From: Terriglobia bacterium
GTDB taxonomy: Bacteria > Acidobacteriota > Terriglobia > Terriglobales > Acidobacteriaceae
Direction of reading: 5' to 3'
Length of the DNA stretch: 64,000 nucleotides
Assembly (NCBI GenBank): GCA_020072815.1
Contig: JAIQGE010000002.1
Coordinates: 186,001-250,000, forward strand
The notes below the pieces were generated by a model that worked only from the letters and a program-made list of their open reading frames with translations, had not been told where the DNA came from and did not search any database. Position 1 is the stretch's first letter. The number at the start of each line of letters is the position of its first letter. Positions 18,824 to 21,557 of the stretch are shown one piece after another. A program made the translations under genes and the position numbers.

Positions 18824-19693
18824 ATGAAACTTCCGTCGGCAGTGCGAACTTTAGCGGTCATGCTGGCCCATGGGCTGGCGCTCGCCGGCGCCGCGCGCGC
18901 CGCTGATCTCAAGCCCGGCACCGTGGCGGCGTTTGACAAGTACGTCGCCGCTACGGAAGTCCGCATCAACGCTGAAATTCAAGCCGGCACGCCGTTCTTA
19001 TACGTGGACGCTCTGCCTCCGCAGGCCATGAACAACTCTTACCAGCAATTGCATCGCGGAGAAATCCTGGTGCAGAGGCTGAAGACCAGGCTGCCGGACG
19101 CCAAATTCGACGTGCCCGATGGGCTGCTCCATCATTGGGTGGGGCTGGTGTTCATCCCCGGCGCGACCCTGGCCACGGCGCTCCCCATTTTGCGCGACTA
19201 TGAACATCGCGTGGAATACTTTAAGCCGGACGTGATTGCCTGCCGCATCATGCAGCGCGACGGTGAAGACTACAAACTCTTTGTCCAGGTTTACCAGAAG
19301 CAGTTCACCACCGTGGTCTACAACACTGAATATGACGTTCACTGGCGCCAGCTGGACCCGGCGCGCGCGTATTCCCGCTCGGTAAGCACGCGCATCGCGG
19401 AAGCCAAAGACGCCGACCACCCTGACGGGGCCGAGATCCCGGTGGACCACGGTCACGGCTACCTGTGGCGCATCAATACTTATTTCCGCTTTCTCGAGCA
19501 GGACGGCGGACTGTATATCCAGTGTGAAGCGGTTTCACTTTCGCGCGATTTGCCCACCGGGCTGGGATGGCTGCTGCGTCCGCTGGTGACCATTGTCCCC
19601 AAACACGGCCTTACGCGCATGCTGGGCCAGACGCGCACGGTGGTGCAACAACAGATAAAGATCAGGGCTGGGCAAACCAAACCAGCAAGCTAG
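18824..19693 (+). CDS. Secreted protein of unknown function (tandem paralogue 1)
   Basis: 289 residues with a signal peptide cleaved after ALAGAARAA (about residue 27). The mature protein starts ADLKPGTVAAFDKYVAATE and has no Cys pair or membrane helix. The mixed strand-helix pattern with a long conserved C-terminal part (GYLWRINTYFRFLEQDGGLYIQCEAVSLSRDLP) suggests a START/SRPBCC-like binding fold, but this is inference. The next gene is a close paralogue, so local duplication is clear. Confidence 0.75.
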   Translation: MKLPSAVRTLAVMLAHGLALAGAARAADLKPGTVAAFDKYVAATEVRINAEIQAGTPFLYVDALPPQAMNNSYQQLHRGEILVQRLKTRLPDAKFDVPDGLLHHWVGLVFIPGATLATALPILRDYEHRVEYFKPDVIACRIMQRDGEDYKLFVQVYQKQFTTVVYNTEYDVHWRQLDPARAYSRSVSTRIAEAKDADHPDGAEIPVDHGHGYLWRINTYFRFLEQDGGLYIQCEAVSLSRDLPTGLGWLLRPLVTIVPKHGLTRMLGQTRTVVQQQIKIRAGQTKPAS

Positions 19694-19730
19694 CGCTCTA
19701 AGCTAAGAGTTCATTGACCTTTTCAGCTTG

Positions 19731-20588
19731 ATGAATATGGCAAAGACAACTTATGGAAGTAGACCATGCGCGGCAATGGTTTTGTGCTGGCTTGCTCTGG
19801 CGTCGGTGGCCGCTGCCGCTGACTTGAAGCCGCAGACCACGGATGCCTTCAACAAATATGTTGCCGCCACGGAAGCCCGTTTCGCCGGTGAACTCCGCCC
19901 CGGCGGCGTCTTCCTTTATGTAGATGGTCTTTCCTCTGCCGCGCGTAAAGAAGCGTACGAGAAACTGAAAGCCGGTGAGGTGCTGGTGGAAAAGCGCCAC
20001 ACCCAAGCCCCCGGCGTGGACGGAGACGTTCCCGGCGGCATGGTGCACCACTGGGTCGCGCTGGTCTTCATTCCCGGCGTGACTCTGGCGCAGGCGCTCC
20101 CGGTGGTGCAGGATTACGATCATCGCGCTGACCTGTACAAACCTGAGGTGATTGCCTCGCGCGAGATTTCCCACCAGGGCGACGACTTCAAGATGTTCCT
20201 GCGCCTCTACCAGAAGAAATTCACCACTGTGATCTTCAACTCGGAGTACGCCGTGCACTGGGGGCACGCGGGAGAAGGCAGGATGTTTTCGGATTCCATC
20301 AGCACGCGCATTGCTCAGGTCAAGGAAGTCGATCATCCTGATGGCGAAGAGTTTCCCGTGGGCCACGACAGCGGCTATCTCTGGCGCTTAAACACCTACT
20401 GGCGATTTGAAGAGCACGATGGCGGCCTTTACGTGCAGTGCGAAGCCCTTTCCCTCACGCGCGACATGCCTTACGGGCTGGGCTGGCTCTTGAAGCCGCT
20501 GGTCACGTCCATTCCTAAACACTCGCTCGGCCAGGCATTGGGACGCACGCGGGAAGTAGTGATGGAGAAAGCCAAAAAGACCGGGTAA
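19731..20588 (+). CDS. Secreted protein of unknown function (tandem paralogue 2)
   Basis: 285 residues, signal peptide to about residue 30 (LALASVAAAADLKPQ). Aligns along its whole length with the preceding protein: shared blocks are ADLKP, FLYVDGL, VHHWVALVFIPG, YQKKFTTVIFNSEY, GYLWRLNTYWRF, GGLYVQCEALSLTRDMPYGLGWLLKPLV. ATG at 19731 or 19737 could be used. A terminator-like hairpin follows at 20594. Confidence 0.75.
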   Translation: MNMAKTTYGSRPCAAMVLCWLALASVAAAADLKPQTTDAFNKYVAATEARFAGELRPGGVFLYVDGLSSAARKEAYEKLKAGEVLVEKRHTQAPGVDGDVPGGMVHHWVALVFIPGVTLAQALPVVQDYDHRADLYKPEVIASREISHQGDDFKMFLRLYQKKFTTVIFNSEYAVHWGHAGEGRMFSDSISTRIAQVKEVDHPDGEEFPVGHDSGYLWRLNTYWRFEEHDGGLYVQCEALSLTRDMPYGLGWLLKPLVTSIPKHSLGQALGRTREVVMEKAKKTG

Positions 20589-20646: not shown

Positions 20647-20964
20647 ATGCAACTGCCTCTTCACCTGCAGAAGGCCGTCACGGCCCTTCTCAATCAACCG
20701 GGTGAGACTGAACTTTCACTCCGTGGTGCGGTCTTGGAACGAACGCGGTCCGCGGCGGGAACCGTGCCGGACGTCCTGCGTGACCTGGTGGAAAAAATCG
20801 CCGAACGCCCCTGGACTGTCACGGACGAAGACTTTGCGGGCCTTCGCGCTGCCGGATATTCGGAAAGCCAGCTCTACGAGGTCACCCTGGCAGCCGCTCT
20901 CGGCGCCGGCCTGCGGCGGTTTGATGCCGGCTTGCGCGCTCTCCAGGAAGCCGAGGCCCGTTAA
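20647..20964 (+). CDS. Small helical partner of the AhpD-like protein
   Basis: 105 residues, entirely helical by composition, without cysteines. The stretch GVLRDLVEKIAERPWTVTDEDFAGLRAAGYSESQLYEVTLAAALGAGLRR (quoted in parts: WTVTDEDFAGLRAAGYS, QLYEVTLAAALGAG) resembles the carboxymuconolactone decarboxylase/AhpD helical fold but lacks the redox motif. Its TAA stop overlaps the ATG of the AhpD-like gene (TAATG), so the two are translated together and may form a complex. Confidence 0.65.
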   Translation: MQLPLHLQKAVTALLNQPGETELSLRGAVLERTRSAAGTVPDVLRDLVEKIAERPWTVTDEDFAGLRAAGYSESQLYEVTLAAALGAGLRRFDAGLRALQEAEAR

Positions 20965-21557
20965 TGCGTCTCGCCTCTCTCCAGCAACCCGTTCACTTGT
21001 GGCAAAGGACCCGCTTTTTTCTGGCACGCGTGTTCGGCCGGCAGATCCCTGGGCCCATTCTGGCCCTTTCCTACCGGCGCAATGAATGCGGCCGCCGCCT
21101 GGCGCGTTGCGTTCAGGAGAGCCTGCGCGGCGCCCGCGAATGGCAAGTGGGAGAGATTGAAATCTTCGCCGCCTTCGTTTCCAGCCTGAACCACTGCAGG
21201 TTTTGAGTGTTATGCCACGCCGCGGTCGCGGCGAAGTCTTTGGGCGGAGAGGCAACCGTGAAGGCGGCGATTACGGACTGGCGGACGGCGGATCTCAGCG
21301 CTCGCCTGCGCGCCGCCCTCCAGTTTCTGGAGAAGCTCACGCTGACGCCGCAGGAAATCAGCAGCGGCGATGTGCTGGCCGCCCGCGCCGCCGGCGTCAG
21401 CGACCAGGCCCTACGCGAGGCCATCTACGTGTGCTTCATGCTCTCCACCATGGACCGCCTGGCGGACGCCTTCGACTTCCCCCTCCCTGATCCGCGCACC
21501 TTGAAGCGTTACGCGTGGATCGCCGTGACTTTCGGTTATCGCAACTTTAGCGTGTAG
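20964..21557 (+). CDS. AhpD-like peroxidase-family protein, candidate selenoprotein with in-frame UGA
   Basis: A 197-residue reading frame interrupted only by TGA at 21204-21206 (residue 81). The N-terminal 80 residues end FAAFVSSLNHCRF and the same frame continues VLCHAAVAAKSLGG, a normal AhpD/carboxymuconolactone decarboxylase core followed by the expected helices to the end. The active-site pattern of AhpD (Glu, C-x2-C, His four residues later) is met by Glu66, Cys78, UGA81 and His85, so the UGA falls exactly on the second active-site Cys. CxxU redox motifs are known in AhpD-like selenoproteins. A GGUC-loop hairpin lies 17 bases downstream. Alternative: nonsense mutation or sequencing error, but the frame after the stop is intact. 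Confidence 0.75.
21218..21233 (+). promoter_or_regulatory. Candidate bacterial SECIS hairpin
   Basis: A perfect six-base-pair stem (CGCCGC with GCGGCG) closes a GGTC tetraloop (21224-21227). The loop begins 17 bases after the UGA; in E. coli fdhF a GGUC loop lies 18 bases after its UGA. Caution: the stem is made of Ala-Ala-Val-Ala-Ala codons conserved in the protein, so GC-rich codon choice alone could create it. Confidence 0.5.

Follow-up and report, generated by a model that had tools for sequence, protein, structure and literature searches.

AhpD-like selenoproteins carrying a CxxU motif are already on record. Table 1 of PMC13188914 lists AhpD-like TIGR01926 CxxU, CMD-like CxxU, NF041047 and NF041238 selenoproteins, and AhpD-like selenoproteins of COG2128 appear in PMC1794560 and PMC2398784. 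The preliminary description of the present locus had stated that proteins of this type exist, as that table bears out, and since AhpD-like CxxU selenoproteins are listed there, the protein chemistry considered here is of a known kind. As presented in these sources, the AhpD-like CxxU proteins (TIGR01926/COG2128) have in common with this locus an AhpD/CMD domain, selenocysteine (Sec) at the second position of the CxxC motif, and a bacterial SECIS. The protein encoded in the window (the whole stretch of 64,000 nucleotides of Terriglobia bacterium DNA that was analysed) differs from them in being divergent, in having its own N-terminus, and in being accompanied by the gene of a predicted truncated-AhpD partner; the passages on AhpD-like CxxU selenoproteins in PMC13188914, PMC1794560 and PMC2398784 make no mention of such a partner gene.

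Other described systems resemble the locus in part. The NF041238 (seleno)protein, AhpD_rel_CFYUT, shares a CxxU AhpD-related domain, but its model spans 357 positions and the window protein scores only 33.4 bits against a cut-off of 175. The best matches of the large protein in both sequence and fold are peroxidase-related structures, namely D. radiodurans AhpD (6k40), Mlr4105 (3c1l), 2prr and 2oyo; compared by their titles alone, these entries name no half-size partner. Additionally, Sestrins combine two AhpD-like domains, of which one is catalytic and the other is not (PMC11429811), a possible parallel to the gene pair described below. In contrast, Sestrins are eukaryotic, consist of one chain, bind leucine and GATOR2, and contain no Sec.

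The AhpD-like gene occupies positions 20964-21557 of the forward strand, where a frame of 197 codons runs from an ATG at 20964 to a TAG at 21555-21557 and has as its sole internal stop the TGA at 21204-21206 (codon 81). The read-through protein matches Pfam CMD (PF02627) at 27.9 bits, above the gathering cut-off of 23, and its match to the NCBIfam model TIGR01926 (peroxidase-related, AhpD-like) spans the TGA over residues 63-173, with 75.7 bits against a cut-off of 81.8; none of the NCBIfam cut-offs is passed. The best of 32 relatives with the same gene pair reaches E 7.6e-28 against TIGR01926, so that some relatives are nearer to that model. The UGA aligns with the second active-site Cys of the homologues, and around it stand Cys78 at -3, Glu66 at -15 and His85 at +4. 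This C78-x2-U81 arrangement agrees with the AhpD-type active-site layout (Glu -15, Cys -3, Cys/Sec 0, His +4), and the spacing is the same as that of Glu118, Cys130, Cys133 and His137, which are presumably the corresponding residues of M. tuberculosis AhpD. Arg at -16, frequent in relatives, is Ile in the window protein. The predicted structure of the large protein has a pLDDT of 83.9, with residues 1-60 weak. The single frame interrupted by TGA alone, the one AhpD/CMD domain on both sides of it, and the positions of the catalytic residues are thus all as the preliminary description had claimed.

The case for reading 20964-21557 as a selenoprotein gene through UGA recoding is strong and purely computational. 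Taken as a whole, the locus most probably (roughly 0.9) encodes a Sec81 enzyme of AhpD/CMD fold together with a coupled, truncated partner, the two most likely forming an obligate heteromer. Homology with M. tuberculosis AhpD suggests that Sec81 would carry out the attack after activation through a proton relay of Glu66 and His85, and that the selenenyl-sulfide would be resolved by Cys78; candidate substrates are a peroxide, a peroxiredoxin or a disulfide. Both the activity and the formation of a heteromer are proposed from sequence.

A probable upstream partner and the two-gene cassette

The selenoprotein gene is one half of a two-gene cassette, and this is the finding that is new here. The other half is a gene of 105 residues at 20647-20964 of the forward strand, which overlaps the AhpD-like gene by one base (TAA/ATG, in TAATG) and is probably translated together with it by coupling through that overlap. 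The same one-base overlap is present at the partner homologue of G002, the nearest relative. In all 80 loci from named genomes (the best 80 of 297 matches), the small gene precedes the AhpD-like one. Furthermore, 107 cassette loci were fetched, three of which are repeats, leaving 104 distinct loci. The small gene stands upstream in 103 of them; with start codons picked by a script, the two genes overlap in 71 loci and lie no more than 25 bases apart in 101. Among these loci, L086 appears to carry a frameshift, and L049 is truncated at its contig end. In the remaining locus, L233 (G941:C36), the partner is fused to a Sec AhpD-like chain in a 319-residue protein, the C-terminus of which matches the small-partner profile at E 1.3e-18. 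The order in this fusion is catalytic domain first, as in Sestrin.

Several lines of comparison suggest what the partner is. Its structure is predicted with a mean pLDDT of 95.5. A Foldseek search with it gave no match at E <= 0.001, the best (2.3e-2) being an AhpD-type structure, and VIA-align likewise placed AhpD-type structures at the top: 3c1l with Z 9.7 and rmsd 4.5 over 102 positions, and 7xw1 with Z 8.8 and rmsd 2.6 over 92, while Sestrin2 gave Z 8.5 and rmsd 2.9 over 102; such Z values can be attained by chance for helical bundles, and that of Sestrin2 lies below that reach. In sequence, the partner has no match to CMD PF02627 and matched no profile model of its own, and it aligns at 24.2 bits with positions 116-160 of TIGR01926, in the half after the active site. 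Fold match and TIGR01926 sequence match agree, and together indicate a putative truncated AhpD-like fold without the catalytic CxxC. Across the family, CxxC occurs in one of 106 small proteins, and some Cys in 91.

The preliminary description had suspected the 105-residue protein of being a partner, and the suspicion is upheld by the linkage in 103 of 104 distinct loci and the one fusion. An independent regulator or a bystander, rather than a subunit, is an unlikely but serious alternative. The sequence of the window partner is only distantly related to those of 42 aligned relatives (25-38% identity), which speaks for this alternative; against it stand the nearly invariant position upstream of the AhpD-like gene, the fusion in L233, the AhpD-like fold, and the lack of any family occurring in more than three of 79 scanned flanking ORFs (of 116 picked by script). 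Because no flanking family recurs more than three times, the gene pair itself looks like the unit, and shared neighbours were dropped as a functional clue. The near-universal linkage and the single fusion therefore favour the partner reading, in which the small protein is most likely an obligate heteromer with the catalytic chain, to which it may contribute a second half, stability or specificity. The comparison exposes a conserved partner that studies of function could miss.

Directly 5' of the cassette are two tandem paralogues, at 18824-19693 and 19728-20588, which are 56% identical over 250 residues. Both have signal-peptide-like starts by eye, and neither matched a Pfam family.

The probable SECIS hairpin and the selenocysteine machinery

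A candidate SECIS hairpin lies at 21218-21233 of the forward strand, with a six-bp stem (21218-21223 paired with 21228-21233) and a GGUC loop (21224-21227) that begins 17 nt past the UGA, exactly as had been described beforehand. Published limits for bacterial SECIS elements are a loop of 3-9 nt with an early G, a stem of 4-16 bp, a spacing of 16-37 nt and an MFE <= -7.5 (PMC13188914), and the hairpin falls within these published values (a 4-nt loop, a 6-bp stem, 17 nt of spacing and a centroid energy of -11.9 kcal/mol). Its folding energy is no better than that of shuffles (z +0.60) and was dropped as SECIS evidence; the case for a SECIS rests on covariation, not on energy. In the proposed mechanism, SelB and Sec-tRNA would act with this hairpin to recode UGA21204 as Sec81.

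Covariation was assessed in a first set of homologues with HxAxA after the site, consisting of 25 UGA and 72 Cys genes. Of the 25 UGA genes, 23 have a Watson-Crick pair at the wobble positions +15/+24, as do 31 of the 72 Cys genes (Fisher p 1.4e-5, a rough value because the rows are related), and only two of 20000 shuffles reach this pairing within the UGA set. The outer pair +12/+27 is weaker (20/25 versus 32/72) and does not rise above shuffles within the 25 UGA genes, 3028 of 20000 reaching it. Overall, none of five covariation measures was reached by any of 500 shuffles (0/500) in the 25 HxAxA UGA genes. Within the cassette subfamily, where the Cys side is represented by 78 distinct stretches after collapsing, all six pairs are formed in 25 of 25 UGA members and in one of the 78 Cys stretches, and the GGUC loop is present in 24 of 25 and in six of 78, respectively. 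Every cell is paired in these 25 UGA members, and not one of 500 shuffles attained their covariation score; of the five measures, two were reached by 10 and by 79 of the 500.

The pairs are kept through changes that alter the protein. For instance, HGAVAS is found in 17 UGA members and goes with a G-U pair at a place where C-G stands in seven others; similarly, two members have HTAVAV with A-U, and one has HDAVAS with A-U. That pairing is maintained although the amino acids change reads as clear evidence of selection on the RNA within coding sequence, and a SECIS with compensatory changes of this kind is one of the reasons why the locus matters.

Other AhpD-like UGA families were seen in relatives (L166-L204, e.g. 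L169, L171 and L179), in which the Sec is followed by HAYFLR, HAEFLR or HGEDLR. Forty UGA loci are not of the HxAxA type, and not one of them forms the five inner pairs seen in the window hairpin, so the SECIS of those loci must be arranged otherwise.

The machinery for Sec decoding is present in the window's genome (5.29 Mb, listed as 100% complete). A search for selA, selB, selC and selD had been set beforehand as a test, and all four were found: tRNA-Sec (selC) at 73.9 bits with anticodon TCA, SelB at 389 bits, SelA at 551 bits and SelD at 382 bits. The selD gene (L160, G000:C8:77253-78182) holds one in-frame TGA of its own, and SelD is therefore probably a selenoprotein itself. Beyond this genome the correspondence is looser. 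A tRNA-Sec of at least 58 bits was detected in 21 of the 24 Sec-cassette genomes, the exceptions being G002, G910 and G899; of the Cys-cassette genomes, 30 were tested and 18 gave such a hit. Among 200 relatives, 55 have a UGA AhpD homologue that was checked; tRNA-Sec at E < 1e-10 was found in 46 of these 55 and in 84 of the 145 comparison genomes, which are the rest of the 200 and include some whose flagged TGA matches were left unfetched. Nine of the 55 had no tRNA-Sec at E < 1e-10, and four of these (G067, G109, G155 and G178) are listed as 97-100% complete. These absent hits are evidence against a perfect match of UGA genes with Sec decoding; a divergent tRNA-Sec may also be missed, because the search over the 200 relatives used stricter filters.

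It is highly improbable that the hairpin is an incidental product of the Ala codons and that the UGA is read otherwise, by suppression with another amino acid. Such a reading would account for the four of six stem pairs that follow from the Ala codons alone (HAAVAA), for the unremarkable folding energy, for the behaviour of pair +12/+27 and for the genomes that have UGA homologues without a clear tRNA-Sec. However, it leaves aside the bias at +15/+24, the Sec cassettes with HGAVAS, HTAVAV and HDAVAS that keep all pairs by G-U or A-U, and the full sel set in the genome. The reservation in the preliminary description that the hairpin is built from Ala codons consequently stands for those four pairs, but not for the wobble pair +15/+24 or for the amino-acid-altering compensatory changes.

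Conservation at and beyond the UGA

A homologue match at E <= 0.001 was present in 124 of 200 relatives. In 158 distinct loci (that of the window included, both strands), the codon aligned with residue 81 is TGC in 80, TGA in 65, TGT in 13 and any other in none; since 40 of these loci were fetched for a flagged TGA, the counts show the position of TGA, not its prevalence. Six loci with identical DNA were dropped from this set, and known repeats of other loci were excluded beforehand. One locus flagged as having one TGA (L022) has TGT at the site, and its flagged TGA is read as the terminal stop, the frame being open up to there.

The TGA is common to separate assemblies. The nearest relative, G002, which belongs to the same genus and comes from a separate assembly, also has TGA, with 58% protein identity over 133 residues on its contig. 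Between the two genomes, pN and pS are 0.29 and 0.76 before the TGA (49 of 80 residues identical) and 0.26 and 0.54 after it (28 of 51 identical), the stretch downstream thus being under purifying selection. Scattered other stop codons in relatives, which the preliminary description had named as a sign against Sec, were found in none of the 23 full-length unfused TGA cassette genes; these are otherwise open across 190-198 codons.

That the TGA is a real stop, leaving a pseudogene or an 80-residue truncated protein, is accordingly even less credible than an incidental hairpin. The standard code would end the window gene at codon 80, as this alternative says, but it is opposed by the TGA that stands at precisely this codon in 65 of the 158 distinct loci (a selected sample), by the open frames and continued purifying selection beyond it, and by the conserved Glu, Cys and His around it. 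Least probable of all is a stop at the UGA followed by a restart, for while the GTG at 21207 immediately after the TGA does open a 116-codon ORF and would give chains of 80 and 116 residues, this GTG is not conserved (ACG, ATC, CTG and AGC also follow the TGA) where the hairpin is, and the split would divide the CxxC motif as well as the AhpD fold.

Sec and Cys forms of the cassette

Selenocysteine at residue 81 being the preferred reading, the cassettes can be compared by the codon at this site, which is TGC in 66, TGT in 13 and TGA in 25 of the 104 distinct loci. All 104 members retain Glu -15 and His +4. In contrast, Cys at -3 is found in 25 of 25 Sec cassettes and in 40 of 79 Cys cassettes, the first Cys of the motif being replaced in the other 39 by Ser (27) or Thr (12), as in L097 and L104-L119. 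The two-Cys mechanism of AhpD is therefore not kept family-wide, and the Cys cassettes that lack the partner Cys, about half of them, must work differently.

The named Cys cassettes come from Actinomycetota, Bacteroidota, Chloroflexota, Acidobacteriota and others; as they come from the best 80 of the 297 matches that a Cys-type query gave, the ratio of Cys to Sec among those 80 is no census. The relation of the two forms was examined in a tree of 43 cassette rows and 16 outgroup rows (other AhpD-like proteins), from which the site and the nine following columns were excluded and the long-branched L233 fusion was kept out. In this outgroup-rooted tree, 19 Cys cassettes form one clade (100/99) within a grade of 24 Sec cassettes. 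An AU test rejects the holding together of all Sec cassettes only at a borderline p-AU of 0.045. The small-partner tree groups the rows similarly but weakly: its best version has two state changes, and a single change is seen in 47% of 200 bootstrap trees. Replacement of Sec by Cys in the sampled cassettes is thus likely rather than settled, given that p-AU value and a small-partner tree that is too weak.

In bacteria, replacement of Sec by Cys is described as an uncommon event, confined for the most part to FdhA and SelD (PMC13188914). A fuller history can be offered tentatively, at somewhat less than even odds: a two-component Sec-dependent redox enzyme with a separately encoded, catalytically empty half-AhpD partner, in which Sec was ancestral, may have switched once from Sec to Cys, and the Cys version may then have spread to Actinomycetota, Bacteroidota, Chloroflexota and others, some of them without Sec decoding, often losing the other Cys. 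If true, an ancestral Sec replaced by Cys would reverse the usual Cys-to-Sec direction described for thiol oxidoreductases.

Overall, the cassette adds a well-supported selenoprotein subfamily, which conventional annotation would cut short at codon 80, and its Sec and Cys versions form a matched set around the same partner, which allows a direct test of what Sec contributes. In one phylum nearly all matches are of the Sec form: in that of the Kofleriaceae locus L127 (G576, Myxococcota), 21 of 377 genomes gave 22 matches at E <= 1e-35, of which 21 have TGA at the site, and the TGA form is present in 20 of the 21 matching genomes.
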